Assembly: GCA_018432315.1 (NCBI GenBank)
Contig: JAHDLB010000023.1
Coordinates: 62,001-126,000 of the forward strand
DNA length: 64,000 bases
Source: Anaerolineae bacterium
GTDB lineage: Bacteria; Chloroflexota; Anaerolineae; Aggregatilineales; Aggregatilineaceae
Direction: 5' to 3'
In this document: piece after piece, positions 13,888-64,000 of the stretch
Layout of the letters: each line of letters starts with the position of its first letter
Position numbering within the stretch: the first letter of the stretch is position 1
Translations under genes and position numbers: made by a program
Notes under the pieces: model-generated
Databases searched by the model: none
The model's input: the letters and a program-made list of their open reading frames with translations, nothing else
Told to the model about the DNA's origin: nothing

Positions 13888-13897
13888 GATGGGCCTC

Positions 13898-14461
13898 CTA
13901 ATTCCACAGCTTGCGAACAAAATACGCCAGGGCGTAGGCTCCGCCAAAGACGGCGAACATGAACGCCCAACTGCCCACCGACAGCACCGCGCCGCCTGAC
14001 AGCGCCTGGCCGGACGTGCAGCCGCGCGCCAGCCGGGCGCCGTATCCCATGAACGCGCCGCCGACGAAGGCCATGACCCAGCGCAGCCGGATCGGCACGC
14101 GCGGCCCGCGATTGGTCTCGACCTTCAGGCGACCGTGCAGCCAGCCGGACGTGAAACCGCCGATCACCACGCCGATCGTCACGAACACGACCCAGCTATC
14201 GAGCGGGTTGCGGTCGCCGCCGGCCATCTCCAGCAGGTAGGGCGTGGTATCGACGTGGTCCGGAACGATCGCGTCCTCGACGACCACCAGCAGCCGGTTC
14301 ATGCCGCCCGAGGCGCCCAGCCCGTTGCCGGTGATGAAGAAGGCGAGGAACAACACGATGCCCAGCAGGATGCCGCCCACGTACGGGTGCACGTAGGGTT
14401 TTGCTGCGCGCCGCAGCCAGGATGAGCTGCGCGCTTCTCGTGTGACGGATTGTGTAGCCAT
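13898..14461 (-). CDS. YeeE/YedE family membrane protein
   Basis: This 187-residue protein has about four membrane helices and the family Cys motif GARLARGCTSGQALSGGA near residues 142-160. It pairs with the downstream YeeE-rhodanese protein as the two halves of a full-length YeeE-type channel, a split arrangement known in this family. The likely substrate is thiosulfate or another small sulfur anion entering the cell, inferred from family and the neighbouring cytochromes. Its ATG directly follows the stop of the multiheme gene. Confidence 0.88.
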   Translation of the reverse strand: MATQSVTREARSSSWLRRAAKPYVHPYVGGILLGIVLFLAFFITGNGLGASGGMNRLLVVVEDAIVPDHVDTTPYLLEMAGGDRNPLDSWVVFVTIGVVIGGFTSGWLHGRLKVETNRGPRVPIRLRWVMAFVGGAFMGYGARLARGCTSGQALSGGAVLSVGSWAFMFAVFGGAYALAYFVRKLWN

Positions 14462-17209
14462 CTATGCTTCCTCCGGGGACTCATGACCTTCAAGCTCGCC
14501 CCAGCCCGTGATCATCGACTTGATCCCGGTGACAGGCGTGCGTTCGGTGGTGGTCAGATAAACGTGCATGACGATGAACGCGGCGAACGACCAGGCGATC
14601 AACGTGTGGAAGGGCGCCAGGATAGTGAGCCCGCCCAACCGGTCGGCCACGTCGGGCCAGGTTTGGGCGCCCCACATCAGCGCGCCGGTGATCACCTGGA
14701 GCGGCAGCAGCACGTTCAGAATCGCCAGGTAAGTCACCTGCTGCAGCGGGTTCATTTTGCGTCCGGGCGTCCGTTCGAACGGGTGCGGCTCGCCGCGAAA
14801 GATGCCGCGCAGGTAGTACAGGGCCTGGGCAAATGCCTGGCCGAAGAAGCCGTGCGGTTCGGGCAGATACTGGCGGATCTCGCCGCTTGCTAGGTGATAG
14901 AACGCCGCCAGCGCCGCGTTGATGACCAGAATGGCCGCCAGGACGTTGTGCACCACGACCACGTAGCGGAAGCTGAACATGCCGAAGATATCCGGCTTGT
15001 GGATGACCAGCCCGGTGAAGAGCAGCAGCAAGATCAGCACGGTTTGCAGCCAGTGCCACTGGCGCTCGTAGACCGAGTACATATACTCGCGGCGGTACGC
15101 CTGCGGCGCGTGCTGCAACGTCTGGCGGCGCGCAGCCAGGTAGCGCAGGCCGCTGTGTGCGCTGACGCCCGCGACCACGCCCAGGAACATCAGCGCGCCG
15201 AGCGCATCCACCCAGAAGACGCTGTCGTGCCCAAAGACGTACAGGCCCAGTTCGTCGCTGTTGTGGCGCGGCTCGAAGTACAGCGCGCCATCGTCGACCA
15301 CCAGCTCGCCGCCCGCCGCAACGTCCGCGCCGCCGGCAAAGCCCGGCAGCACGCCGTCCGGAATCGACCCGGCCAGCAGCACGCGCGAGGCCAGCCGCGA
15401 GTCCGCGCTGTGGCAGGTGTCGCAGTCTTTGATCGCCCACTCGTCCGTCGTCACGTTATGGCTGATCGTGTAAGGCCGCACCTCTCCCTCGATCCGCGGT
15501 GCGTCCAGCCCCCGCGCTTCGAGTCGGGCTGCGATCAGCGCGACCTTGGCCTCGTTGTCGAGCACCAGCTCGCCGTCGTCCAGGCTGCCGCTGCCATCGG
15601 CGTCGAAAGCCTGCACGACGTCCGGGTGATAAGCGTCGCCTTCAAGCCACGCGGCCCGCAGGTCGCGCAGCGGAACCGGGCGCGCCGGGTCGCCATAGAC
15701 CCAGAACCAGGTCGTGACCAGGTTGTGCGGCGCCAGCGTCAGCGTGCCGTCCGCCTCTTCGCGTGGCAGCAGGACGGGAGCAAAGCCGGTGTACAGGTCA
15801 GGATTGTCGGTTCCGCCCACGCTGGTCACCCCGCGGCATTCGGTTTTTGCCGTTCCATCCACCGTCAGCACCGTCCAGTCGTTGGACTGGCGGGCCGGGC
15901 CGAACAACTGCGGGATGTGGCACGTTTCGCAGCCAAGCGCCGCCGTGTGGCGGTCCAGGTAGGGCAGCCAATCGTGCCCGGCGCTCGCATCGTGGCACGA
16001 CTCGCAGCGGCGGAGCGTGTTGTCGAGATCGGGCGCGAGCGGGCTTTGCGCGCTGTTCCCCTTGGCGAACTGGTGCACCGGGCGGTAGAGATACTCGCCC
16101 AGGTCGATCCGGCGCGGATCGAACAGCAGGTGATCGAGCTGCTCGTCGCCGGCCTCGCGGTAGTAAACCGGGTTGTTCAGCGCGAAATGGCAGTTCACGC
16201 ACTCGACGGCGCGCTCGGCGTGCACGTCGAACGAGCGCGTCAGGTCATTCTTGCCCGCGAAGTTCGTGCCCGTGATCGCCAGCGGCTGCGGCGAGAAGAC
16301 CTGCCCGGTCGTCGCCGTGCCCGGCTGCGCTGTCTCGCACCCGTCCAGCACCAGCGGAATCTGGTTGTCGGTGTGGACCTGCCCGTGACACAGGCCGCAG
16401 TTCTCGGTGTCGGGGTCCTGCAGGGTGATGGCATCCTGGCTCAGCTCGCCTTCCGCGGTGAAAGCCTCCCCGTTCCAGCGCCACGCGCCGCCGTCCTGCT
16501 CCACGATGCCCGTCCCGGCCAGGGTGGCCGTGTTGGCCCAGGCGAATTCGCCCGCTTCCAACGCCGCGATGCGGGCTTCGTTGTCGGGACCCTCCATGTG
16601 GCACAGGAAGCAGTTCATCTCCACGACGCCGGACTCTGCCCAGTCCCAGGGAGCCAGCGCGCCGGTCGCCGGGTCGACGATCTGCGTTTCGGTGCCGGCG
16701 GCCTCGCCCGTCAGATCGGCCAGTGGCGTGCCGTCCCGGTTGTAGACTGCCGGCCCGCCGCCCGCGTGATACAGGCCCAGCGTCTGGATCCACTCGGCAG
16801 TGGTGAGGTCGATTCGCTCGTCGCCCTCCGGCGAGAGATAGCGATAGGTGAGCGGGTCCCAGCGCCCGAACAGACCAGGGCTGGTGTCCCACGGCTGGAA
16901 ACCGCCGGTGCCGTAGTCCTGCAAGCCAACGTCGGCGTGAAAGCTGTGCTCGGCGATGAACGCGGTGTCGTGGCAGGTGCCGCAGGTTTGCATGGTCGAG
17001 ACGGGCTGCCCGCTTTCGAGCACGTTCTCGCCGTTGGCGTCGAGCAGGGGGAAGGTGGGGTGCAGCGGCGAGCCGCCTTGCGCCCCTGCGGGATTGGCGC
17101 CGCCCACGAGCAGGGCGGCAGCCACCGCCGCCGCGCCCAACACCCCCATCACAAGGTACGCATGCTGCCGGATCGTTCGATTGATGCTCATCGTGCCCCC
17201 GCGTTTCAT
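14462..17209 (-). CDS. Heptaheme cytochrome c fused to cytochrome b561-type domain
   Basis: This 915-residue protein has a signal or anchor helix (about 17-42) and seven CxxCH motifs beginning at residues 76, 200, 271, 337, 402, 427 and 596. An EF-hand-like loop DADGSGSLDDGE sits at 536-547. The last 270 residues hold about five membrane helices with paired His typical of dihaem cytochrome b (HWLQTVLILLLLFTGLVIHK; VVHNVLAAILV; HTLIAWSFAAFIVMHVY). Such a protein can pass electrons between quinol and periplasmic haems. The start at 17209 overlaps the upstream stop as ATGA; ATG 17191 is an alternative. The next gene upstream encodes an octaheme enzyme, the probable redox partner. Confidence 0.88.
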   Translation of the reverse strand: MKRGGTMSINRTIRQHAYLVMGVLGAAAVAAALLVGGANPAGAQGGSPLHPTFPLLDANGENVLESGQPVSTMQTCGTCHDTAFIAEHSFHADVGLQDYGTGGFQPWDTSPGLFGRWDPLTYRYLSPEGDERIDLTTAEWIQTLGLYHAGGGPAVYNRDGTPLADLTGEAAGTETQIVDPATGALAPWDWAESGVVEMNCFLCHMEGPDNEARIAALEAGEFAWANTATLAGTGIVEQDGGAWRWNGEAFTAEGELSQDAITLQDPDTENCGLCHGQVHTDNQIPLVLDGCETAQPGTATTGQVFSPQPLAITGTNFAGKNDLTRSFDVHAERAVECVNCHFALNNPVYYREAGDEQLDHLLFDPRRIDLGEYLYRPVHQFAKGNSAQSPLAPDLDNTLRRCESCHDASAGHDWLPYLDRHTAALGCETCHIPQLFGPARQSNDWTVLTVDGTAKTECRGVTSVGGTDNPDLYTGFAPVLLPREEADGTLTLAPHNLVTTWFWVYGDPARPVPLRDLRAAWLEGDAYHPDVVQAFDADGSGSLDDGELVLDNEAKVALIAARLEARGLDAPRIEGEVRPYTISHNVTTDEWAIKDCDTCHSADSRLASRVLLAGSIPDGVLPGFAGGADVAAGGELVVDDGALYFEPRHNSDELGLYVFGHDSVFWVDALGALMFLGVVAGVSAHSGLRYLAARRQTLQHAPQAYRREYMYSVYERQWHWLQTVLILLLLFTGLVIHKPDIFGMFSFRYVVVVHNVLAAILVINAALAAFYHLASGEIRQYLPEPHGFFGQAFAQALYYLRGIFRGEPHPFERTPGRKMNPLQQVTYLAILNVLLPLQVITGALMWGAQTWPDVADRLGGLTILAPFHTLIAWSFAAFIVMHVYLTTTERTPVTGIKSMITGWGELEGHESPEEA

Positions 17210-18651
17210 TCAGAACCCTTCGCGCCGGCGTTCCGCCCGCCCCAGCGCATCGGATCGCCCAGGTAGCCCAGGGCTTCCCAATTCATCCGGCTGTCCGCAC
17301 TGTGGCAGTCGGAGCATTTGAGGGCCAGCTCCGCCGGGGCCACCATATGCGTGATCGGCCAGTACATCTCCGTCCAGGTGAAGCCGTACTCGCCGCTGTA
17401 GTCCAGGCCGGTCGCGTCCGATCCGAGCTGCGCGGCCAGGTCCCAGTTGAATTCGGTCCAGTAACCGCCTTCACCAACGGTCTTGGGCACCAGGAGAATG
17501 TTATTGACCGTGTCGTAAATCTGGTTGGCGCGATGGATCTTGAACGGCCAGATCTTGGCGTTGGGATCGTCGATGTCACCGATCGGATCGTTGATCCGCG
17601 TCACTTCGTTGGGGTCGATAGGATCGCCCAGCAGGTATCGCTCGGCGGTGCCGGCATACCAGTCGTAAGCGGGGATGAAGTCGCCTTCGTAGATGAAGCT
17701 GCCTTTGATCTTCAGATACGAGTGCTGGTCTTCGGGCAGGTCCTGCCCGGCAGCCGACCAATCCCACACCATCTTGGTGGGCTCGCGCCGCGCGCCCGCC
17801 GGGATGTGGCACGTCTGGCAGGCCACCGAGTCGGTGTGGGCGTTCACGCGGGCGTCATCGTGCGGCGCCGCGTCGTGGCAGTCGGTGCAGGCCACCTGGT
17901 TGGCGTTATCCACGCTGACCGAGATCGAGCGGCCTTTGATGTCGTGATCGGCAGTCTGGTGACAGTCGGTACACTGGAAGTCGTGGCGGCCCATGTGCAC
18001 GTCGAGCGCTTCGTCCGGGTAGTAGAGGGTTTCGTCGAGATCGCCGTGCTTGACCGCGTCGCCACCGCCCCCGTTGAAGTGACAGTAGCCGCAGTTTTCG
18101 CGCGTGGGCAGGCCGACGCTCTGAGCCGCTGCGACCAGGTCGACTCCATCGGCGGGCAGGCCCGACGCCGCTTTGGCATACTGGCCCGATTGGTCGTGGC
18201 ACACCAGGCAGTCGACATCGTCTTCGGTGGCCGTCTCGATGAAATCGGCCCCTTCCCAGCCATACCCCGCGTGACAGCGGGTGCAGCCCGTCCAGTTGGA
18301 CTGAATGCCGATGCAGAAGTTATTGAGCACGTTAGCTTTGCCGGTGGACACCGGCTCCTCCCGCCAATCGACCTCGACCGGGGGCGCCTGCCACGTCCAG
18401 TGGTTGGTGCGCATCACTTCGGTGGCGGCATCGTCGTGGCAGTCGAGACAGGCGAGCGTGACGTCACCGCCGGTTTCGAACGGTCCCTTCAGCAGCGCGC
18501 TGTGATCGGTGGCCGGGCTATCCTTGGGAACGTGGTCCCAGGGGTTGGTCGCTGCTTCCGATTCAGGTTGAAGGACCAGCACCACCGGCACGATGACGAT
18601 CAGCGCCGTGCCGATCAATCCCAGAACCCAGATGTATTTGAAGTCTCTCAT
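17206..18651 (-). CDS. Octaheme c-type cytochrome, tetrathionate reductase (OTR) family
   Basis: This 481-residue protein is anchored by an N-terminal helix (about 7-28). It has eight CxxCH motifs starting at residues 68, 123, 148, 187, 227, 255, 278 and 446. The arrangement, the NNFCIGIQSNWTGCTRCH block at 111-128, the long haem-free stretch (290-440) and a final CSDCHSADSRMNW resemble the OTR family, whose Shewanella member reduces tetrathionate and also nitrite or hydroxylamine in vitro. The true substrate here is open. Neighbouring sulfur transporters favour a sulfur oxyanion. It is coupled to the heptaheme/cyt b gene by a four-base overlap, so the two likely form a membrane reductase or oxidase. 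Confidence 0.85.
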   Translation of the reverse strand: MRDFKYIWVLGLIGTALIVIVPVVLVLQPESEAATNPWDHVPKDSPATDHSALLKGPFETGGDVTLACLDCHDDAATEVMRTNHWTWQAPPVEVDWREEPVSTGKANVLNNFCIGIQSNWTGCTRCHAGYGWEGADFIETATEDDVDCLVCHDQSGQYAKAASGLPADGVDLVAAAQSVGLPTRENCGYCHFNGGGGDAVKHGDLDETLYYPDEALDVHMGRHDFQCTDCHQTADHDIKGRSISVSVDNANQVACTDCHDAAPHDDARVNAHTDSVACQTCHIPAGARREPTKMVWDWSAAGQDLPEDQHSYLKIKGSFIYEGDFIPAYDWYAGTAERYLLGDPIDPNEVTRINDPIGDIDDPNAKIWPFKIHRANQIYDTVNNILLVPKTVGEGGYWTEFNWDLAAQLGSDATGLDYSGEYGFTWTEMYWPITHMVAPAELALKCSDCHSADSRMNWEALGYLGDPMRWGGRNAGAKGSE

Positions 18652-54228: not shown

Positions 54229-54652
54229 GAGAAATCAGTGGAGTCATGCAAGCAAGGACCGTGCTCGCTTGTGGTGTCTCGGCATTTGTCTGAAGCATCC
54301 ATTAATGGTGACTTTCGTTCATGAATGTTGGCCATCATGCTACTGCATCGCCTTAGGGTGTTACAGACGATCATGACACCACCAGTGGTGAAATCATCCG
54401 GGAATGGGACCATGTTTTGGCTCGGACTACGCTGAGACTTTCGCCGCTCGTGGACCAATAACCTCGTGGCCTTGTTTTGGCCTTACGGGATCGAGAGCAT
54501 TTAGGGGAATCAGTAGAACTATCTATAAGCGGTCATAGAAAAAACCGATACCGCTTGTGATGTCCTTCACTTATCCGCGATGGGCTCACCCACTATAGTT
54601 GTCTTCAGAAGTCAAGCATTCGGTTAAGTTATGAACTTCTTTGGAATCCCGG
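54229..54652. other. AT-richer intergenic interval
   Basis: This is 424 bases without a recognisable gene, visibly poorer in G and C than its surroundings. A small minus-strand frame exists but resembles no family. TATAGT at 54594-54599 may be a -10 for the plus-strand redox cluster; the corresponding -35 (TTATCC) is poor. Confidence 0.4.
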
Positions 54653-55255
54653 ATGGATGCCCAAATTCTCGAGTGCGCCAGGCTGCAGGCAGAAATCTGC
54701 AAAGTATTTGGCAACGCCAACCGCATCTTGATTCTGTGGGTGCTGGGCGATCGGGAGCTATCTGTAGGGGACATTGCTGAAGCGATCGATTCTTCTATGC
54801 AAAACACATCCCAACACCTTCGCCTGATGAAAGACAAAGGAATCCTGGTATCGCGCCGGGAACAGCACACGATCTTGTACTGTGTGGCTGATCATGAGTT
54901 GATGGAAGGCTGCCGGCTCTTTCAGGTTGCGCAGTATGGAGATACCGCAAACGCTCGTGTAAGCAATCGTCAGAAATACAACCATCAGGAGGATATACCA
55001 ATGTCGAACATCGATCTCTCCGCTATCGAAGCCGCCAAAGTCGTCGACGCACGCGGCAGCGCCTGCCCTGGGCCGCTGCTCGAAGCCAAGAAAGGCATCG
55101 GCGCTATTCCCGTAGGCCAGGTGCTCGAAATCTGGTCCGGCGATCCGAACACCAAGAACGACATTCCCAAGTGGGCGCAGAAAGTCGGTCATGAGTATTT
55201 AGGGGCTCTTGCAGCGGATGGCTATGACCGGATCTTCCTCAAGCGCTCGAAGTGA
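54653..55255 (+). CDS. ArsR-family domain read in frame into a TusA sulfur carrier
   Basis: One open frame of 200 residues holds an ArsR winged helix (about 1-95: CKVFGNANRILILWVLG, VGDIAEAIDSSMQNTSQHLRL, wing SRREQHTILYCV), a linker (96-116) and a complete TusA domain (117-200). The linker DNA contains AGGAGG seven bases before an internal ATG (55001), so TusA can also be made alone. No stop codon separates the two parts. The ArsR part has four Cys (ILEC, EIC, LYC, EGC), which could sense sulfur species. ATG 54653 is chosen; TTG 54641 is an alternative. It is the first gene of the Qmo-like cluster and its likely regulator. Confidence 0.75.
   Translation: MDAQILECARLQAEICKVFGNANRILILWVLGDRELSVGDIAEAIDSSMQNTSQHLRLMKDKGILVSRREQHTILYCVADHELMEGCRLFQVAQYGDTANARVSNRQKYNHQEDIPMSNIDLSAIEAAKVVDARGSACPGPLLEAKKGIGAIPVGQVLEIWSGDPNTKNDIPKWAQKVGHEYLGALAADGYDRIFLKRSK
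55001..55255 (+). CDS. tusA: TusA-family sulfur carrier (internal start)
   Basis: This 84-residue protein, if translated from the internal ATG, has Cys22 in ACPGPLLEAKKG, the CPxP motif that carries persulfide sulfur in TusA. The fold continues with VGQVLEIWSGDPNTKNDIPKWAQKVGHEYLG. The upstream AGGAGG is the strongest ribosome site in this cluster, so most TusA is probably made in free form. It would hand sulfur to or from the Hdr/Qmo-like proteins and the DsrE protein at 60836. Confidence 0.85.
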   Translation: MSNIDLSAIEAAKVVDARGSACPGPLLEAKKGIGAIPVGQVLEIWSGDPNTKNDIPKWAQKVGHEYLGALAADGYDRIFLKRSK

Positions 55256-55265
55256 GCGATCCCTC

Positions 55266-55733
55266 ATGGCAACTGCGTCAGAGGACATGAAAATTCTGAT
55301 CCTGGCTACGCTGTCAGGTGGCTATGCCGGGGCCGACGCGGTGGGACAGTTGCATGCTTCTTATGCGCCCAATACGTACATCCTGCCGGTGGTCTGCCCG
55401 GCTATGTTCCCTGAAGATTTCTATCTGCGCGTGTTCGAGCGCGGCATCGATGCCGTCCTGGTGATGTACAGCGGCACCGACTGCCCCTACAAGGGCGGTG
55501 CCGAACGCACCGCGCAGCTCATCAACAAGGTCTATCCCTTGATGACCGAACGCGGGATCGATACTCGGCGGCTGCGGCTGGTGGCGATTTGCACGGTTTG
55601 CACCAGCGCTTTCATGCGCGAGGTCGCCCAGATGAACCAGACCCTGGCCGAGATCGGCCCGGTGCGCAATGAACTCGCCGCGGCGGTGGCCGCGCAGGCG
55701 TCTTTATCCAGCGACGAGGTGGGCCAGCCATGA
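55266..55733 (+). CDS. MvhD/FlpD-like iron-sulfur electron-transfer protein
   Basis: This 155-residue protein resembles the small subunit that links hydrogenase or formate dehydrogenase to HdrA. It has the fold pattern AVLVMYSGTDCPYKGGAERTAQL and RLRLVAIC. Cys44, Cys73, Cys109 and Cys112 are the likely cluster ligands. In QmoB of sulfate reducers an MvhD domain is fused to HdrA; here it is a separate gene just before the first HdrA, with a four-base overlap. ATG 55266 removes an upstream stretch that overlaps the tusA end. Confidence 0.8.
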   Translation: MATASEDMKILILATLSGGYAGADAVGQLHASYAPNTYILPVVCPAMFPEDFYLRVFERGIDAVLVMYSGTDCPYKGGAERTAQLINKVYPLMTERGIDTRRLRLVAICTVCTSAFMREVAQMNQTLAEIGPVRNELAAAVAAQASLSSDEVGQP

Positions 55734-57064
55734 CCGTAAAAAACGTACATGTCGATGTGCTGGTGGTGGGGGGCGGCATCGCGGGGATGCAGTCGGCGTT
55801 GGACCTGGCCGACCAGGGCTATCGCGTGGCGCTGGTCGAAAAGGAACCTAGCATCGGTGGCAAGATGATCATGCTGAGCAAGGTCTTCCCGACACTGGAC
55901 TGCTGTAGCTGCATCACCACACCCAAGATGTCCGCCGTAGCACACCACGACAATATCGAGCTGCTGACCTACTGCGACGTGCAGGCGATAGGCGACAGGC
56001 CCGGTGGCGGCTTCGTGATCGACGTGGTGCAAAAGCCGCGTTATGTCGATATCGATACGTGCACGGGCTGCCGCCAGTGCGAATACGTCTGTCCGATCGA
56101 TCTGCCGTCGCAGTTCGACAGGGAACTGGGCGCGGTGCGCGCGATCCGCGTGCCGTTCTCGACGGCTGTTCCGCAGAAGGCGTTTCTCGATATCGACAAC
56201 TGCATCCTGTGCGGCAAGTGCCAGCAGGCTTGCCCGGTCGAAGCCATCGACTTTGCGCAACAGCCGGAGACGTTCACCGTAGAAGCGGGCGCGATCATCC
56301 TGGCGACCGGGTTCGAGCTGACCCCTGCCGGTGCCAAAGCCGAGTACGGCGCGGGCGAGCTGCTCAACGTGGTCGATGCGCTGGTGATGGAGCGCCTGCT
56401 CGCGCCCACCGGCCCGTATGGGCACGTGCTGCGCCCGTCTGATGGCAAGGAGCCGGACTCGATCGCTTACGTGCAGTGCGCCGGCTCGCGCGACAAGACG
56501 CTCGGCGTCGAATACTGCTCGCGCGTGTGCTGCATGTACGCCATCAAGCAGGCGATGCTGCTCTCCGGCGCGCTGCCGCTGGCCGATATCACGATCTACT
56601 ACATGGACATCCGCACATTCGGCAAAGGCCATGAGCAGTTCTACCAGAACGCCAAAGCGATGGGGATCGAGTTCGTCAAAGGGAAGGTGGCGCGCATCAC
56701 AGAAGATGAAGACAAGAACCCTGTCGTGCGCGTGGAGTTGATCGAAGACGGTTCCAAAGTCGTCGAGCGCGCGCACGACCTGGTCGTGCTCTCGGTCGGG
56801 ATGCTGCCGGGCTACAACCCCAAGTCTCTCTACGGGGTGCCGGTCGCGGACGATGGCTTTGCCGCAATCCCCGCGCCGAATATCCGGCCCAGCGTCACGC
56901 CAAAGCCGGGGATTTTCGTCACGGGGGCGGCTGCCGGGCCGATGGATATCGTAGACAGCATCGTGCTGGCCGGCGCGGCTGCTGCCGAGGCCGCCGCGTA
57001 CCTGGAAGAAGTCCGCACGCCATCGCCGCAGCGCGCGGCAATCGAGGAGGCCGTCCATGCCTGA
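55730..57064 (+). CDS. HdrA/QmoA-like flavin iron-sulfur oxidoreductase
   Basis: This 444-residue protein has an FAD motif VVGGGIAGMQSALDLADQG at the N-terminus, the HdrA-typical CCSCITTPKMSAVA loop, two 4Fe-4S motifs (CTGCRQCEYVCP and CILCGKCQQACP, about residues 107-170) and C-terminal flavin-binding stretches including VTGAAAGPMDIVDSIVLAGAA. Length matches QmoA rather than the longer HdrA of methanogens. It would pass electrons between the second HdrA and the membrane subunit. Start overlaps the MvhD stop. Confidence 0.88.
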   Translation: MTVKNVHVDVLVVGGGIAGMQSALDLADQGYRVALVEKEPSIGGKMIMLSKVFPTLDCCSCITTPKMSAVAHHDNIELLTYCDVQAIGDRPGGGFVIDVVQKPRYVDIDTCTGCRQCEYVCPIDLPSQFDRELGAVRAIRVPFSTAVPQKAFLDIDNCILCGKCQQACPVEAIDFAQQPETFTVEAGAIILATGFELTPAGAKAEYGAGELLNVVDALVMERLLAPTGPYGHVLRPSDGKEPDSIAYVQCAGSRDKTLGVEYCSRVCCMYAIKQAMLLSGALPLADITIYYMDIRTFGKGHEQFYQNAKAMGIEFVKGKVARITEDEDKNPVVRVELIEDGSKVVERAHDLVVLSVGMLPGYNPKSLYGVPVADDGFAAIPAPNIRPSVTPKPGIFVTGAAAGPMDIVDSIVLAGAAAAEAAAYLEEVRTPSPQRAAIEEAVHA

Positions 57065-59105
57065 GCCACGATCCAATGGTGACGTCCGAATTGGTGTTTA
57101 TGTCTGCTACTGTGGCGGCAATATCAGCGATGTAGTGGACTGCGAGCAGGTCGCTGCCGCGCTGCGCACGCTGCCCAACGTGGTGGTGGCGCGCACCGAT
57201 ATGTCGATGTGCTCCGATGCCGGACAGGCCCTGATCGAGACTGACATTCTCGAGCACGGGATCAACCGGGTGGTGGTTGGGGCATGTGCCCCGTCTTTAC
57301 ACGAGCGCACCTTCCGCAACACGATCGCGCGCGCGGGCCTGGACGCAGGGCTCAATCCTTACCTCTACCATCACGTGGGCTTGCGCGAACAGGTGTCGTG
57401 GGTGCACCAGGGCAACCCGCAAAAGGCCACCGAGAAAGCGATCCGCCTGATGATGGCCGGGATCGCCAAAGCGCGCATGCTGGAACCGCTGGAGCCTACT
57501 GTGCTCGACGCGGAACAGCACGCGCTGGTGATCGGGGGTGGGGTGGCAGGTCTGCGCGCGGCATGGGACATCGCGCGGCGCGGCATCCGCGTCACCCTGA
57601 TCGAAAAGTCGCCGTTCCTGGGCGGCCACATGGCCCAGCTCGAGACGACGTTCCCCGCCGGCGAGGACGCGCGCGCCGCCTTGGGCGACCTGATCGACCA
57701 GGTGGTAGCGCACCCGTTGGTCACGGTGCATACACGCGCTGAACTGACGGGTGTGAGCGGCTACGTCGGCAACTTCCAGGCGCAGATCACGCAGCAGTCG
57801 CGCGGCGTCAGCCAGGGATTCACGCACTTTGCCGAGGCGGCGGAAGTCTGCCCGGTGGAGGTGCCGGACGAATTCGACTATGGGATGACCACGCGCAAGG
57901 CAATCTACCGCGCGTATCCGGGCGCATACCCTGACCTGCCTGCGATCGACTGGGCGCACTGTGACGCCTGCGGCAAATGCCTGAGCGTGAACGGGACAGG
58001 GCTCGACCTGGAGAACAAGCCCGCCACGTTCGATCTGAACGTGGGCGCGTTCGTGGTAGCCACCGGCTTCCGGCCCTACGAGCCGCGCCGGGGCGAATAC
58101 GGCTACGACGAACATCCCGAGGTGATCACGCTGCCGCAGATGATCCGGCTGTTGGCGCTGGCCGGTGATGGCCCCGATCTGCTGTGGAACGGGCGCACGG
58201 TCAAAAACGTCGCGTTGATCCACTGCGTGGGCAGCCGCGAGATCCCCGGCGTGCACGAGCCCCAGCCGGACGGACAGGTCAACGACTACTGCTCGCGCGT
58301 GTGCTGCACGGCGACGCTGCATCTCGCCACTGAACTCCGCGAGCGCTACCCGCATCTCAACATCTTCGACATCCACGAGGATATCCGCACCTATGGGCGC
58401 GGCCACGAGGACATCTACACCGAGGCGGCAGCCAACCGCGTGGGCTTCCTGCGCTTTCACGGCGACGAGCGGCCCGATGTGCTGCCGGCGCCTGACGGTG
58501 ACAGCAGCCCGCTGCTCGTGCGCGTGAAGGATTATCTGACGTGGGGCGAGGAACTCGACGTGCCCGCCGACCTGGTCGTGCTGGCGACGGGGATTCTGCC
58601 CAGCCCGGTGGACGACATCATCAGCCTGCTCAAGATATCCGCCGGGACGGATCGCTTCCTGCTGGAGGTGCATCCCAAGCTGCAGCCGGTCGAGACGGCG
58701 GTGCCCGGCGTGGTCCTGGCGGGCACGGCGCAAGGCCCGATGAACATCCAGGAGGCCAGCGCGGCAGCGTCCGCGGCGGCGGCCAAGGTGGCGGTCTTGC
58801 TGGGCCAGGGATCGGTCAAGCTCGAGCCTTTCGTCGCGCGGGTGAACCATGCCCTGTGCGACGGGTCCGGCGAGTGTGTGGCGGTCTGCGCCTACGAGGA
58901 CGCCATCACCCTGCAAACCGTCAGCGATAACGGCCAAACAGCGCAAAAGGCGGTGGTGACACCGGCCAACTGTGTGGGCTGCGGTGTCTGCGTGAGTGCC
59001 TGCCCCAACCACGCGATCGATGTGCAGGGGTGGACGCTGGCGCAGTACGACGCGATGCTCGACGCGCTGGCCGCGCCGCTGCCTGTTCTGGAGAGTGCAA
59101 CATGA
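57057..59105 (+). CDS. Second HdrA-like protein (QmoB-like)
   Basis: This 682-residue protein has the N-terminal HdrA domain (IGVYVCYCGGNISDVVD, RTDMSMCSDAGQ), an FAD motif VIGGGVAGLRAAWDIARRG near residue 158, a degenerate internal cluster motif CDACGKC, flavin stretches, and two C-terminal ferredoxin motifs: CDGSGECVAVC, in which the second Cys is Ser, and CVGCGVCVSACP. The first may hold a 3Fe-4S centre. QmoB proteins are of similar size but carry a fused MvhD domain, which is separate here. It overlaps the first HdrA gene by eight bases. Confidence 0.88.
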   Translation: MPEPRSNGDVRIGVYVCYCGGNISDVVDCEQVAAALRTLPNVVVARTDMSMCSDAGQALIETDILEHGINRVVVGACAPSLHERTFRNTIARAGLDAGLNPYLYHHVGLREQVSWVHQGNPQKATEKAIRLMMAGIAKARMLEPLEPTVLDAEQHALVIGGGVAGLRAAWDIARRGIRVTLIEKSPFLGGHMAQLETTFPAGEDARAALGDLIDQVVAHPLVTVHTRAELTGVSGYVGNFQAQITQQSRGVSQGFTHFAEAAEVCPVEVPDEFDYGMTTRKAIYRAYPGAYPDLPAIDWAHCDACGKCLSVNGTGLDLENKPATFDLNVGAFVVATGFRPYEPRRGEYGYDEHPEVITLPQMIRLLALAGDGPDLLWNGRTVKNVALIHCVGSREIPGVHEPQPDGQVNDYCSRVCCTATLHLATELRERYPHLNIFDIHEDIRTYGRGHEDIYTEAAANRVGFLRFHGDERPDVLPAPDGDSSPLLVRVKDYLTWGEELDVPADLVVLATGILPSPVDDIISLLKISAGTDRFLLEVHPKLQPVETAVPGVVLAGTAQGPMNIQEASAAASAAAAKVAVLLGQGSVKLEPFVARVNHALCDGSGECVAVCAYEDAITLQTVSDNGQTAQKAVVTPANCVGCGVCVSACPNHAIDVQGWTLAQYDAMLDALAAPLPVLESAT

Positions 59106-59407
59106 CACTAACCCGCGAAGAAGCCAAACAGCGCACGGCGATCCTCAAGCAGGTGCGCGACCAGCACCAGGAGACGGTCGACCGCACGCGGGCCCGGCTC
59201 AAAGACCAGCAGACGGTGCGGCGGCAGATCTGCCAGCAGTTGCGGGGTGGGCCGAAGATCGTGCCCGAGATCGCGGAAGCGACCGGCCTGCCGGCGCATG
59301 AGGTGCTGTGGCATATCACCGCGATGAAGAAATACGACCTGGTGGTCGAGGTCGGGCAGTGCGGCGAGTACTACCAGTACGCGATGGCAAAGGAAACCGA
59401 ATCATGA
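59102..59407 (+). CDS. Small winged-helix-like protein in the Hdr/Qmo operon
   Basis: This 101-residue protein has an N-terminal charged helix (EEAKQRTAILKQVRDQHQE) and a C-terminal winged-helix-like part (ICQQLRGGPKIVPEIAEATGLPAHEVLWHITAMKKYDLVVEVGQCGEYYQY). It overlaps both neighbours by four bases (ATGA at each side), so it is made in step with the complex. It could be a regulator or a structural or assembly part of the complex; I cannot decide. It has two Cys and no cluster motif. Confidence 0.78.
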   Translation: MTLTREEAKQRTAILKQVRDQHQETVDRTRARLKDQQTVRRQICQQLRGGPKIVPEIAEATGLPAHEVLWHITAMKKYDLVVEVGQCGEYYQYAMAKETES

Positions 59408-60567
59408 GCACACGTGTCGACCCGATCCTGCTGGACGAGATCAAAGACTACGGCGCCATCAACCCGGAAGCCTGCTTCAACTGCGGCAACTGCACCGCGA
59501 TCTGCCCGCTGACGACCGATGACCATCCTTTCCCGCGCAGCACGATCCGGCAGCTCCAGATGGGGCTGCGCGACCAGTTGCTGGAGAGCGCCGATCCCTG
59601 GATGTGCTACTACTGCGGCGACTGCACGCGCACGTGTCCTAAAGGGGCCGAGCCCGCCGAAACCATGATGGCAGCGCGCCGCTGGCTGACCGCGCAGTAT
59701 GACGGGTCGGGCTTGGGCGCGAAGCTGTATACGTCCGAACGGGCGGTGTTCCGGCTGGTTGCGCGCTACGTGGTGCTGACGCTTGTCGCGTTTATCGTAT
59801 ACCACGCCCTGACCGGCTTCGACCGGATCGTGACCGACCGCGTCGAGCTGAACACGTTTGCGCCGGTGATGTTGGTGTGGGCGTTCGTGTTGGTGCACTT
59901 TGCGTTCCTGGGCTTCCGGCTGGGCAAGAATACGCTGAACATGGCGAACCGGGTCATGCGCTCAACCAGCGAGCAAGTGAAGATTCCCCTATCGGTGTAC
60001 GTCAGCGAGTTCAAGGCGTTCGTCACGCATTTTGTCACCCAGAAGCGCTGGCGCGACTGCAACGACGTCGATCACAGCCGCTGGCTCAAGCACCTGCTGC
60101 TGGTTTCGGGCTACGTCACGATGCTCGTGTTGATCGTGCCGCTGTTGTGGTGGTTCCAGACCGACAACATCTACCCGGTGTATCACCCGCAGCGCTGGCT
60201 TGGCTACTACGCGACGATCGTGCTGCTGTTCGCGTCGGTGGAAATTCTGATCGGGCGGTATCGCAGACGCGAGGAGCTCCACCGCTTTTCGCACCCGACA
60301 GACTGGCTCTTCCCAACGTTCATCCTGGTGAGCTCGGTGACCGGCATCCTGGTGCACATCTTCCGCTATGCCGGGTGGGCCTGGCCGACGTACATCATGT
60401 ACGTGGTGCACCTGATGGCGGTGCTTGCCATGCTGGACACCGAGGTCGGTATTGGCAAGTGGACGCACATGATCTATCGCCCGCTGGCGATGTACCTGGA
60501 CGCCGTCAAGAAGCGCGCCCGGCAGGAGAAGTCCGCGCCGGAGCTGGCCCCGGCTGGCACGGACTGA
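59404..60567 (+). CDS. HdrC-cytochrome b fusion, QmoC-like membrane subunit
   Basis: This 387-residue protein has an N-terminal HdrC-type ferredoxin domain with CFNCGNCTAICP and CYYCGDCTRTCP (about residues 24-80), then six membrane helices of the NarI/HdrE type with His residues suited to two b haems (for example HFAFLGFRLG, HLLLVSGYV, HIFRYAGWAW, HLMAVLAML). This is the composition of QmoC, the quinone-facing subunit. No HdrB gene accompanies the operon, consistent with a Qmo-type rather than a heterodisulfide reductase complex. ATG 59404 overlaps the previous stop. Confidence 0.9.
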   Translation: MSTRVDPILLDEIKDYGAINPEACFNCGNCTAICPLTTDDHPFPRSTIRQLQMGLRDQLLESADPWMCYYCGDCTRTCPKGAEPAETMMAARRWLTAQYDGSGLGAKLYTSERAVFRLVARYVVLTLVAFIVYHALTGFDRIVTDRVELNTFAPVMLVWAFVLVHFAFLGFRLGKNTLNMANRVMRSTSEQVKIPLSVYVSEFKAFVTHFVTQKRWRDCNDVDHSRWLKHLLLVSGYVTMLVLIVPLLWWFQTDNIYPVYHPQRWLGYYATIVLLFASVEILIGRYRRREELHRFSHPTDWLFPTFILVSSVTGILVHIFRYAGWAWPTYIMYVVHLMAVLAMLDTEVGIGKWTHMIYRPLAMYLDAVKKRARQEKSAPELAPAGTD

Positions 60568-60835: not shown

Positions 60836-61207
60836 ATGAGTGAAAACGGAAGCGGCCCGATGGTCGTCATCTGCAACAGCGACAGCGCGGGCGTGATGCC
60901 CACCTTCATCATGGGGGCGTCCGGTGTGGGCATTGGCGAGGACGTGCTGATGTTCTTCTGCCCGAACGGTGCCAACGTGCTGCTGAAGGGCGAGCTTGAG
61001 AAGTTCCAGGGCAAGAAGGGCCTGCCCGACCCGGTCGAGCTTTTCAACACGATCCTCGACGAAGGCGGGCGCATCATCTTGTGTGAGCTGGCGCTTGAGG
61101 CCAAGGGAATCAGGAAAGAGGACCTGCGCGACGAACGGATCGAGATTTTGAACGCGCCTTCGTTCCTGCTGGCGGCTCAAGGCGCGGGGATCACCCTGAC
61201 GTTTTAG
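60836..61207 (+). CDS. DsrE-family sulfur-relay protein
   Basis: This 123-residue protein resembles DsrE/DsrE2-type proteins. Cys83 lies in LCELALEAKGIRKEDLRDE, the position of the conserved sulfur-binding Cys; others are at 13 and 42. No membrane helix is present. These proteins receive or deliver persulfide sulfur together with TusA, which is encoded at the start of the same cluster. RBS AAGGAG precedes the ATG, and a terminator at 61236 follows. Confidence 0.87.
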   Translation: MSENGSGPMVVICNSDSAGVMPTFIMGASGVGIGEDVLMFFCPNGANVLLKGELEKFQGKKGLPDPVELFNTILDEGGRIILCELALEAKGIRKEDLRDERIEILNAPSFLLAAQGAGITLTF

Positions 61208-61270: not shown

Positions 61271-62194
61271 CTAGCGCTCGGCCAGCCGCAGCAGGTCGGC
61301 GTTGGCAGGATCGTGCACAAAGCCCCAGAAGGCTTCCACCGCGCGGTGTGACTCGCGCACCTCCGACCGGATCAAGAAAACCTTGCGGTGCAAGTTGAAG
61401 CCCGCCACTGGCACTTCAACCACGGTTCCTTTGTCTATCGCCCAATCTGCAGCCAGGCGTGACACGAACGACACGCCAAAGCCCACCTCGACGGCTTTGA
61501 CAATCGCCTCGGAATTGCCCACTTCCAGGCAAATATCCATATCGTCGAAGGTGATGCTGTGTTTGCCCAACTCGGCGAGTAAGGCGCGGTGTGTGCCCGA
61601 CGTTGGCTCGCGGATGATCAAGGGCGTTTCCAGGAGCTCCGACGGCTCGATCGACTGCCGTGATGCCCAGGGGTGGGTGGCAGGTACGATGAGAATAATG
61701 TGGTCGTTGAAAAACTCCTGACATTCCATGCCGTCACCGCACGCATCATAGCTGACGACTCCCAGATCGGCTTCTTCTTTGAGGAGCTGCGGCACAACGA
61801 GCGGCGATGTACACCTCATGACCGAAATATTGACGCCCGGATGCTGCTCATGAAAACGCGCGGCGAACTGCGGCAAGACGTATTTGCCCGTGGTCGTGCT
61901 GCACGCGATGCGTAGTTGACCCCCTATTCGATCTTCCACGGATTCCATCAGTTGCTGGATTTCGAAGGCGTCGTGAACCAGCTTGCGCGCGCGGGGAAGC
62001 AGCAGAGTGCCGGCTTCAGTCAAGCGCAGCACTCTGCCGGAGCGATCGAACAACTCGACACCCAGGCCACGTTCCAGCGCCTTGATATGATGGCTGATCG
62101 TCGGCTGGGTGAGGCTCAGTTGTATCGCCGCCTCGGAAAAGCTCATCCGCTGAGCAACGTGCAGAAATGTCTGTAATTTTGTCAAGTCAATCAT
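61271..62194 (-). CDS. LysR-family transcriptional regulator
   Basis: This 307-residue regulator has an N-terminal winged helix (MIDLTKLQTFLHVAQRMSFS, SEAAIQLSLTQPTISHHIKAL) and a substrate domain with QLRIACSTTTGKYVLPQF near residue 92. The sequence is of the CysB/CbbR-like general type. ATG 62194 fits the usual LysR start; ATG 62206 is possible. It is convergent with the dsrE-like gene. Whether it controls the sulfur cluster or the downstream minus-strand genes cannot be read from sequence. Confidence 0.93.
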   Translation of the reverse strand: MIDLTKLQTFLHVAQRMSFSEAAIQLSLTQPTISHHIKALERGLGVELFDRSGRVLRLTEAGTLLLPRARKLVHDAFEIQQLMESVEDRIGGQLRIACSTTTGKYVLPQFAARFHEQHPGVNISVMRCTSPLVVPQLLKEEADLGVVSYDACGDGMECQEFFNDHIILIVPATHPWASRQSIEPSELLETPLIIREPTSGTHRALLAELGKHSITFDDMDICLEVGNSEAIVKAVEVGFGVSFVSRLAADWAIDKGTVVEVPVAGFNLHRKVFLIRSEVRESHRAVEAFWGFVHDPANADLLRLAER

Positions 62195-62227
62195 CGCTTG
62201 TCTCATTCCGAGAATCTAGCCGGTGGT

Positions 62228-62467
62228 TCACCAATCCGGCTGGTTGCTTCGGTAGGGTCGCCGTGCCAGTCTATCGGCCAGGCGGTTGACCGCGGTCCAT
62301 CCGTCTGGCCTGTGCAGGCTGAGGATCAGGATCATCATGGCCGATGTCAGGCACCAGGCGCAGGTCGCCCCGGTTACGAACGGCTCCAGGAACGTCAGGT
62401 AGATGGAAAACACGGTGCCGAACAAGTATAGGCCGAGTAACAAGGCCAGCACGAACGCCTTTCTCAT
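62228..62467 (-). CDS. Half-length VKOR-like membrane protein with CxxC
   Basis: This 79-residue protein has two membrane helices. YLTFLEPFVTGATCAWCLTSAMM matches the last part of vitamin K epoxide reductase homologues, with the active CxxC at Cys36-Ala-Trp-Cys39. A normal VKOR has four or more helices and an extra Cys pair in a loop, both absent here. RBS GGGGAGG precedes the ATG, which overlaps the stop of the DUF364 gene, so it is a genuine coupled gene and not debris. It may act in thiol oxidation with another partner. Confidence 0.72.
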   Translation of the reverse strand: MRKAFVLALLLGLYLFGTVFSIYLTFLEPFVTGATCAWCLTSAMMILILSLHRPDGWTAVNRLADRLARRPYRSNQPDW

Positions 62468-63231
62468 ACATCCTCCCCAAATGCGGTTCCTTCCCGACTC
62501 ATGGTGACCAGCCGCACACCAGCCCGGTGAACCTGGCGGAAATTGGCCCCTTGTTTGATGGCGGCCAGCACGCGGTCGATGTCCGTAACAACCGACCCGG
62601 ATAGCAGGTCGATACCATGTTCGAACAACAGGGGGCTGAGCGGCGTACTCGGTCCCAAGAGCAGGACGGTCGCCGCCGGACTGCACAGATGTAGCAGGTT
62701 TTCCAGGGTGTGATTGACCAGACTCATGCTCGTGATAGCGACGATGTCGGCTTGCGGCAGAATGTCCGGCGCGGCTTCGGCGGGCAGTTCGTCATCTTTG
62801 GGCTGAAGCTCCAGCACAAACAGCCGCTCGAGGCGGGATCGCAGGGCTGGGATGAACGGAAAACTGCCGACCAGCGCGATAGTTTTTCCCTGGCCACGGG
62901 CAGCAATCACCTCTTCGGCGTTCACATCATGCCAGCGATCTGGTTGAGGCAGCAGCAGGGCATTGATCGCCGCCACACCGATGCTCACCAGGGGGGGCTG
63001 TTCCGAATGGGCCAGCCGCGCCAGTTCCCGTGCTGAGAGCGCATGCAATTGTCCCGCTTGAGGAACATCGGGGTTCGCCGAATGGTTGTGCGGCCCGGTT
63101 ACCGTTGACGCCAACCCGCAGCGCACCTGCCCATCCGACCGGATTACAACGGCTGTCCAGTGCAGCCCGATGCACACATCGAGCACATCACCGTCGGGAA
63201 GTGCCGCCAACAGATCATCAACTAACTGCAT
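62464..63231 (-). CDS. DUF364-type putative metal-chelating protein
   Basis: This 255-residue protein contains GKTIALVGSFPFIPALR near residue 115 and QADIVAITSMSLVNHTLENLL, as in the DUF4213/DUF364 family, proteins often found near iron or molybdenum metabolism genes and of unknown activity. Its stop overlaps the VKOR-like gene. RBS GAGG lies five bases before ATG 63231. It follows a NifX-like protein gene by 120 bases, an interval without an evident gene. Confidence 0.85.
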   Translation of the reverse strand: MQLVDDLLAALPDGDVLDVCIGLHWTAVVIRSDGQVRCGLASTVTGPHNHSANPDVPQAGQLHALSARELARLAHSEQPPLVSIGVAAINALLLPQPDRWHDVNAEEVIAARGQGKTIALVGSFPFIPALRSRLERLFVLELQPKDDELPAEAAPDILPQADIVAITSMSLVNHTLENLLHLCSPAATVLLLGPSTPLSPLLFEHGIDLLSGSVVTDIDRVLAAIKQGANFRQVHRAGVRLVTMSREGTAFGEDV

Positions 63232-63351
63232 GTTACCTCGTTGACGTAGATGTGGGCCAGGATGTTATGCCACATTTCACGCAGCGCCCGGCTGATTCGA
63301 TCATCAGGCACGTAAACCTTGCTCGTCCGGGCCGGCAGGATACAGTCTCGC

Positions 63352-63756
63352 CTAGTGAAGCCGGTCTGTATAATCGGTCAGCGTGCCGCCAAGATAAGCC
63401 TTGACCGCTTCTTCGGCACTGGCAAGGTCGGTCACGAAGGGGCGGATGTTGGCCTGTTCCATGGCGAGGTACGCTCCCCGTCCCATCCCGCGCACGATGA
63501 TCACGTCGCAGTCCTGGATCGCGTCGATCATGCGCGCGTGCTTGGCATCCGAGTGTGCGCCAAAGCCATGCCCGCGCGGATCGTCTTCCGATTCGTGCTC
63601 GTGATCCTGATGCGCGAATTGGCGGTGGCCCACCTTGTCGCGCAGTTCTTTCGTGACGATTGTTCCATCTTCGATGGTAAAAACGAGGTAGTAGGGTGCA
63701 CGGCCAAAATGCTGGCTGATGGTCTGGCTGTCTTCCGTGATGACTGCAATTTTCAT
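63352..63756 (-). CDS. NifX/NifB-C-like FeMo-cofactor-binding domain protein
   Basis: This 134-residue protein begins MKIAVITEDSQTISQHFGRA, the signature of the dinitrogenase iron-molybdenum cofactor biosynthesis (Nif3X/NifB-C) domain, and has a His-rich insert (HQDHEHESEDDPRGHGFG) around residues 49-66. Such single-domain proteins occur in many non-diazotrophs and may bind Fe-S or metal-sulfur clusters. No nif genes are near. RBS AAGGAAAG precedes ATG 63756; the frame extends upstream into the MBL gene without similarity. Confidence 0.85.
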   Translation of the reverse strand: MKIAVITEDSQTISQHFGRAPYYLVFTIEDGTIVTKELRDKVGHRQFAHQDHEHESEDDPRGHGFGAHSDAKHARMIDAIQDCDVIIVRGMGRGAYLAMEQANIRPFVTDLASAEEAVKAYLGGTLTDYTDRLH

Positions 63757-63799
63757 GTTCGGTTTCTTTCCTTCTAGGTGTTTGCTGACCTGACTGCAC

Positions 63800-64000
63800 T
63801 TAACCCACCGCTGAGTCAGCGGGGGATTGGAACTCGAGAATGGTGCCCGTGCCGATGGAGACGAAGTCGTCGCCATATGCCTCTGCGAATGCCGTAATGG
63901 CCTGCTCGCCCGTGCAGTGACAGGGACCGACGCGTTCCACACCCAGGCGGCGGAACGCCTGGATAATGGATGCGATCTCGGCGCGGGTCTTGTCCTTCAG
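63800..64000 (-). CDS. MBL-fold metallohydrolase, C-terminal part
   Basis: The visible 66 residues start beyond the window and include RRLGVERVGPCHCTGEQAI and FAEAYGDDFVSIGTGTILEF, the characteristic end of MBL-fold hydrolases in which His and Cys follow GPCHCTG. Such enzymes commonly sit beside NifX-like and DUF364 genes in anaerobes. The N-terminal metal-binding part (HxHxDH) is outside the window. Confidence 0.8.
   Translation of the reverse strand: MKDKTRAEIASIIQAFRRLGVERVGPCHCTGEQAITAFAEAYGDDFVSIGTGTILEFQSPADSAVG

Follow-up and report, generated by a model that had tools for sequence, protein, structure and literature searches.

A TusA-linked Hdr/Qmo-type gene cluster with a CxxC-bearing MvhD-like subunit: a candidate sulfur-carrier:quinone oxidoreductase in Chloroflexota and other phyla

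The genome of an Anaerolineae bacterium of the Chloroflexota (5.69 Mb, 99.4% complete) contains a cluster of Hdr/Qmo-type genes joined to genes for sulfur carriers. The cluster lies in a stretch of 64,000 nucleotides, here called the window (contig C21, positions 62001-126000). Genes for TusA, an MvhD-like subunit, two HdrA-like flavoproteins, a small winged helix-turn-helix (wHTH) protein, and an HdrC-cytochrome b membrane subunit follow one another, with a DsrE-like gene behind them (Table 1). All of these genes had been named, in this order, in a sequence-only reading of the stretch, and all are present. With the start codons given, successive genes from the mvhD-like to the qmoC-like one overlap by 4, 8, 4, and 4 bases, while the tusA and mvhD-like genes do not overlap. 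The nonsynonymous divergence (dN) of the window genes from those of two relatives is low (0.07-0.44) against a synonymous divergence (dS) of 1.4-2.6 or beyond saturation (not computable), which indicates purifying selection on the cluster genes.

Table 1. Features of the cluster and its borders, in window positions.
Feature	Position	Strand	Match
ArsR/SmtB-type regulator	54653..55000	+	NCBIfam HTH_metalloreg, 63.7 bits (cut-off 55), for open reading frame (ORF) 54641-55255
TusA sulfur carrier, CPGP motif	55001-55255	+	PF01206, 2.3e-18
MvhD-fold subunit with CxxC (C109, C112; codons 55590-55601)	55266-55733	+	PF02662 (FlpD/MvhD), 5.4e-18
HdrA-like flavoprotein, QmoA size (444 amino acids)	55730-57064	+	NF040770, 1.6e-145, residues 5-427
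Longer HdrA-like flavoprotein (682 amino acids)	57057-59105	+	NF040770, 1.3e-176
Small wHTH protein	59102-59407	+	PF12840, 8.6e-08
HdrC-cytochrome b membrane subunit (QmoC-like)	59404-60567	+	NF038018 qmoC, 197.9 bits (cut-off 300)
DsrE-like sulfur-transfer protein	60836-61207	+	PF13686, 2.7e-08; PF02635, 6.8e-05
LysR regulator	61271..62206	-	NF040786, 254 bits (cut-off 250)

The window genome has a single TusA match, the one in the cluster. The sulfur-accepting CPxP cysteine of TusA is kept in 93 of 93 cases (best TusA per locus). The sequence AGGAGG (54987-54992) precedes tusA's own ATG. The ArsR-type frame in front has no stop before tusA and runs in frame into it; in the two nearest relatives (L081 and L082), the open frames around TusA comprise just 98 and 90 codons. 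The QmoA-size HdrA-like protein, which matches solved HdrA at 2.2e-118, has an FAD motif, two [4Fe-4S] motifs, and additional HdrA-type cysteines; 14 cysteine columns are each conserved in 85 of 85 sequences. The longer, QmoB-like protein is composed of an N-terminal domain, an FAD region, and a C-terminal ferredoxin region, and has no fused MvhD. Two [4Fe-4S] motifs and six hydrophobic segments occur in the QmoC-like subunit, and its H231 and H356 (residues numbered from 59401) are kept in all 69 of 69 sequences. The DsrE-like protein has one cysteine column conserved in 15 of 15 aligned copies. The wHTH protein may be a regulator or a subunit.

The predicted structure of the MvhD-like subunit (mean predicted local distance difference test score 90.7) closely matches MvhD of a solved complex (5odc_D; Z 18.9, root-mean-square deviation 2.2, 137 residues), with the best non-MvhD row at Z 8.3. 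In this model, the MvhD fold is kept. The cysteines, which we compared in the 97 ORFs that have the MvhD-like profile as their best family (95 of them long enough for the conserved-cysteine alignment), differ from the canonical ones. A CxxC motif after the last strand, placed in the predicted structure between strand 103-107 and helix 113-130, is found in 97 of 97 copies. The canonical cysteines, which we take to be [2Fe-2S] ligands, are kept unevenly: the N-terminal pair is never present, its first member being absent from all 94 copies that cover it, and the second N-terminal cysteine is kept in 40 of 97, that of C-x-GR in 38, that of GC in 41, and that of DCH in 82. Out of five canonical cysteines, 37 copies have three, 36 have two (the window copy included), 18 have one, and six have none. 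One of these six is a fragment; the five uncut ones (L062, L064, L084, L085, and L120) have the CxxC only. Among 25 diverse copies, the only invariant residues are L11, G27, Y33, G60, G70, R102, C109, and C112. A selenocysteine version of the motif was not found among the 97 copies, all of which are open frames (one interrupted by a stop codon would have escaped notice).

Canonical MvhDs of the same genome served for comparison. One lies in a set of HdrC-, CCG-, HdrA-, MvhD-, and [NiFe]-hydrogenase genes (L055:3494-10416; G000, contig C66), and is an internal control for the cysteines. Its motifs are CNWC, CTGR, GC, and QCHY, without a CxxC toward the C-terminus. A second copy, in L059, is alike, such that the CxxC occurs in neither of the two. 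It is likewise absent from the five complete MvhD domains of Apr-linked QmoB, which keep cysteines at four canonical positions; a sixth Apr-linked QmoB (L165) ends at the motif and was left out of this count. The MvhD part is thus separate from the HdrA-like subunits, as the sequence-only reading had stated, but it is not merely separate, since it has no canonical N-terminal cysteine pair and carries an invariant CxxC. According to the passages on solved complexes in PMC12350162, the [2Fe-2S] cluster of MvhD or ElpC is near the bifurcating FAD of HdrA. The MvhD fold, the CxxC, and this location together suggest a dithiol entry port in the cluster subunit, for which the case appears strongest in the five uncut copies devoid of canonical cysteines.

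The window genome has no genome-wide match to the AprA C-terminus (PF12139). The 14 control genomes are silent for this profile as well, but six other genomes respond to it in a sample of 400 from the phylum. The broad flavoprotein family PF00890, which responds in 14 of 14 controls, has 24 matches in the genome, just two of them full length. These are SdhA (contig C35, with Succ_DH_flav_C) and, on contig C26, a weaker match that sits among DAO and CCG proteins. Siroheme sulfite reductase (PF03460; found in 11 of 14 controls) and dsrA (TIGR02064) have no matches in the genome. There is one clear sat gene, on contig C24. The proposed lack of apr, sat, and dsr genes therefore holds, by these profiles, for apr and dsr throughout the genome and for sat at the locus only. 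An intact aprBA-sat set, the result named beforehand as contradicting the proposal, was not found: sat is present and AprA is not. Ordinary sulfate/sulfite metabolism was rejected for this genome on the lack of AprA, dsrA, and PF03460 matches, the sat gene notwithstanding.

The same uncoupling is seen in the phylum. The 400 genomes were drawn twice, for QmoC-like proteins and for AprA, and the draws are taken as the same sample since their handles agree. A QmoC-like protein was found at 1e-20 in 21 of the 400. One of these (G169) has it in an apr-qmo locus (L162), is the only overlap with the six AprA-containing genomes, and was left out. The remaining 20 have no AprA (0/20), and dsrA exceeds its cut-off in one (G089), such that 19 of 20 have neither.

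Two HdrA-like flavoproteins and an HdrC-cytochrome b subunit are common to the cluster and QmoABC, and the earlier matching of the cluster to the parts of QmoABC was correct to this extent. The cluster belongs to the Hdr/Qmo kind as a variant and not to QmoABC itself, because its QmoC-like protein falls below the qmoC cut-off (197.9 versus 300 bits) and its QmoA-like clade excludes the sampled Apr-linked QmoA. In a quick tree of QmoA- and QmoB-like sequences, which has long branches, holds 104 of the 106 rows supplied, and takes its Apr-linked sequences from this phylum only, 84 QmoA-like proteins of the cluster fall into a single clade (support 100), eight QmoB-like proteins of the cluster into another (support 100), and six Apr-linked QmoA into a separate one (support 97). 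Unlike QmoABC, the cluster occurs in a genome with no AprA match and adds TusA, DsrE, and wHTH genes. Six Apr-linked QmoB carry a fused MvhD, whereas the MvhD of the cluster is a separate CxxC protein.

Other known systems share some of these parts. The HdrA and MvhD proteins of the cluster are relatives of solved chains of HdrABC-MvhD complexes (with MvhAG, FdhAB, ElpAB, or MetFV), but the window cluster has no HdrB, an incomplete canonical MvhD cysteine set, and a quinone-type membrane subunit. CCG (HdrB-like) matches are found on other contigs only, and the genome's four CCG proteins accompany a LUD/LutB protein (C61), the [NiFe]-hydrogenase (C66), MTHFR (C30), and DAO/FAD proteins (C26). 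The C30 set (L059:5430-17244 of G000) is an unusual methylene-tetrahydrofolate-linked Hdr set, with HdrA-like proteins of 1025 and 1497 amino acids carrying MvhD-like pieces next to MTHFR and the CCG protein. The sulfur-oxidizing sHdr system is similar in that Hdr-type proteins are associated with TusA and DsrE, as described in passages of PMC6776052. It differs in that the cluster has no HdrB, the CCG proteins of the genome sitting in other sets; no search was made for the lipoate-binding protein of sHdr. The YTD cluster (yedE-tusA-dsrE) likewise has TusA and DsrE, and a YeeE/YedE gene adjoins our cluster in two genomes (G018 and G397); in the relevant passages of PMC12998232, the YTD cluster comprises yedE, tusA, dsrE, and two to three conserved hypothetical genes, with no Hdr or Qmo genes named. 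Among the titles, abstract openings, and passages met in searches of open-access literature (subscription journals and preprints lay outside this scope), we found no account of the tusA-mvhD-hdrA-hdrA-wHTH-qmoC set or of a CxxC MvhD.

Seven QmoA-like sequences were used to scan named genomes, and yielded at least 587 stretches. We confirmed 581, took the best 80 as named loci, and searched these with synteny profiles derived from the window and L055-L072. The full six-gene set tusA-mvhD-hdrA-hdrA-wHTH-qmoC occurs in 63 of these 80. Among 20 Chloroflexota loci (the window and 19 others), it is complete in 17. Individually, TusA is found at the front in 74 of the 80, the MvhD-like protein in 79, the QmoA-like in 80, the QmoB-like in 79, wHTH in its usual place in 71, and QmoC/HdrC in 67. 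A DsrE-family gene is no more than 8 kb away in 69. The proposal of a Qmo-like set uncoupled from Apr and Dsr and tied instead to sulfur carriers is supported. No TusA-MvhD fusion, looked for as a sign of contact, was found among ORFs with profile matches. The distances of TusA, MvhD-like, and QmoA-like proteins co-vary over the 80 loci (r 0.67, 0.66, and 0.89), values reached in 0 of 999 permutations.

The three incomplete Chloroflexota loci have broken hdrA frames (L063) or contig ends (L167 and L171). Of the 17 incomplete named loci, 11 were judged to be cut by contig ends (L088, L089, L093, L094, L099, L106, L118, L125, L136, L138, and L158). Incompleteness is not clearly due to contig ends in L105, L114, L120, L135, L141, and L143, and L135 has neither TusA nor MvhD despite ~2 kb of upstream sequence. 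By record titles, the named loci come from about 12 bacterial phyla and archaea: Chloroflexota, Desulfobacterota and other 'Deltaproteobacteria', Planctomycetota, Acidobacteriota, Bacteroidota, Elusimicrobiota, Armatimonadota, Verrucomicrobiota, Margulisbacteria, Fibrobacteres, Aminicenantes, FCPU426, and archaea. Most are metagenome-assembled genomes, and some single assignments (Heimdall, Archaeoglobales, and Fimbriimonadaceae among them) rest on contigs of 3-6 kb. All six genes are present in a Thermoproteota locus (L144). The gene set is recurrent across phyla and is not an oddity of the window genome.

The electron-partner end of the cluster seems to vary. A short HdrC and another protein replace the membrane part in 15 loci whose record titles name Desulfobacterota or Deltaproteobacteria; this other protein, which follows the wHTH/HdrC region, is of the CCG (HdrB-like) type in the representative scanned (L113). 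The cultured Desulfosarcina cetonica (L096) is a carrier of the short-HdrC type. Within family f34, the QmoA-like protein of L065 (12238-14943) has an inserted Fer4_20/Pyr_redox_2 module of NfnL/GltD type. Five other f34 loci (L067, L069, L070, L073, and L074) have QmoA-like proteins of 905-917 amino acids, likened to that of L065 by size, and L068 and L071 have a form of 460 amino acids. Judged from these genes, a TusA-MvhD-HdrA-HdrA core seems constant while the electron partner varies among quinone, a disulfide, and perhaps NAD(P)H.

We think there is about an even chance that the cluster encodes a membrane-attached flavin/Fe-S TusA-persulfide:quinone oxidoreductase of Hdr/Qmo type, with a dithiol beside the HdrA flavin. 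This proposal builds directly on the conserved gene set, on the MvhD fold with its altered cysteines, and on the lack of apr and dsr matches. From these we infer a single complex that would exchange two electrons between TusA-carried sulfane sulfur and the quinone pool, with TusA persulfide, or sulfide together with TusA, as the proposed substrate. DsrE, and in two relatives also the neighboring YeeE/YedE importer, would supply sulfur to TusA, which would dock on the MvhD-like subunit. The CxxC dithiol would take up or give off sulfur, and the electron pair would pass to the HdrA flavin. From there, electrons would travel through the two HdrA-like subunits to the HdrC part of the QmoC-like protein, then to cytochrome b and quinone. 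Given this mechanism, our first choice of direction, which we hold to be slightly on the probable side, is from sulfur to quinone, with the reverse second. Electron flow in this direction is downhill. Oxidation by quinone is favored on these redox grounds, and the presence of a heme-copper oxidase in 15 of the 20 phylum genomes with a QmoC-like protein is in keeping with it.

Several points weigh against this proposal. Quinone is not the universal partner, because 15 loci replace the membrane part with a short HdrC and a CCG-type protein. The 37 MvhD-like copies with three canonical cysteines could conceivably, with one cysteine of the CxxC, hold an Fe-S cluster. Completeness of the gene set is favored by choice, since sequences of the cluster itself served to find the 581 matches from which the best 80 were taken, and linked genes co-vary by shared descent even without contact between their products. 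Sulf_transp exceeds its cut-off in 81 of 400 genomes overall and in 7 of the 20, none of these among the 13 of family f34; a general link of the YeeE/YedE importer with the cluster is weak and was set aside. The substrate could differ from TusA persulfide, and anaerobic lineages may run the complex otherwise. Oxidase content does not decide the direction, since 15 of 20 genomes have an oxidase and other carriers bear the names of groups that are typically anaerobic.

The most serious rival is operation in the reductive direction, in which TusA-bound sulfane sulfur would be reduced to sulfide by quinol (or by NAD(P)H where the NfnL/GltD-type insert is present) in a cytoplasmic sulfur respiration or electron sink. 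By their record names, carriers include Bacteroidales and Elusimicrobia, which are usually taken as anaerobic fermenters, and the insert in L065 with the five proteins of similar size would fit NAD(P)H as a donor. Transfer from quinol to persulfide would, however, be uphill without an extra drive, and the frequent heme-copper oxidase argues against it as well; we consider this rival rather unlikely. More doubtful is a bifurcation driven by sulfide or persulfide, in which the two HdrA flavins would split a pair entering through the TusA/CxxC port, sending one electron downhill by way of cytochrome b to quinone and the other uphill to ferredoxin or NAD(P)+ (the latter through the f34 insert). 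If true, flavin-based bifurcation would gain a new class, present across many phyla, in which a dithiol replaces the [2Fe-2S] entry.

It is similarly improbable, in our estimate, that the cluster belongs to the published type II QmoABC group as a member independent of Apr, having some other soluble oxidoreductase elsewhere in the genome as its partner and TusA and DsrE in regulation or cofactor biosynthesis only. Type II QmoAB(C) (Neukirchen et al. 2023, PMC10504309) does consist of HdrA-like Qmo proteins found also without Apr and Dsr, as far as the passages describing it go. That description, by which alone the systems are compared, has no TusA/MvhD-CxxC/wHTH/DsrE set; in the main text MvhD does not appear, and TusA is confined to one figure legend and the title of a reference. 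A sulfur carrier as substrate is favored by the CxxC and by the constant presence of TusA next to it. Least likely of the alternatives, and quite improbable, is a role outside energy metabolism, in sensing redox state or sulfide stress or in repair. The dithiol subunit, the wHTH protein, and the nearby regulators might point that way: an ArsR-like family has 22 proteins in 21 other loci, 14 members lying just upstream at 0.6-0.8 kb before the MvhD-like gene, and a LysR relative lies behind the cluster on the opposite strand in 12 loci, the window included. VKOR in the window neighborhood might be added to these. A cytochrome b with several flavin/Fe-S subunits would be costly for such a purpose, and the neighboring regulators vary by lineage (ArsR, LysR, CRP-like by sequence, and sigma-54 type).

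VKOR belongs to a minus-strand run downstream of the cluster (window 62228-64000 and L001:10464-15122) that also includes DUF364/DUF4213 and Nitro_FeMo-Co genes, followed, by eye, by metallo-beta-lactamase-fold, ParA/MinD-like, and radical-SAM-like genes. Elsewhere in the window (12655-18651), a sulfur transporter of the YeeE/YedE type is split and has a rhodanese domain; beside it are two genes with cytochrome c7-like matches, one also with a b561 domain and the other with Cytochrome_cB. In five loci (L092, L093, L097, L098, and L108), a MetF-like gene follows the cluster on the same strand (scanned as MTHFR in L093), hinting at a link to C1 metabolism.

If the TusA-persulfide:quinone oxidoreductase proposed here is correct, microbes without apr and dsr would have a respiratory link to zero-valent sulfur. 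Surveys based on gene markers would have missed this link, since the HdrA parts and the QmoC part are readily taken for Hdr of the methanogen type or for Qmo of sulfate reduction. The MvhD-like subunit would be an Fe-S electron-entry subunit turned thiol-based on the same fold, with its CxxC as a one-motif marker. The cluster may thus represent a route of sulfur metabolism that is widespread but has been overlooked.

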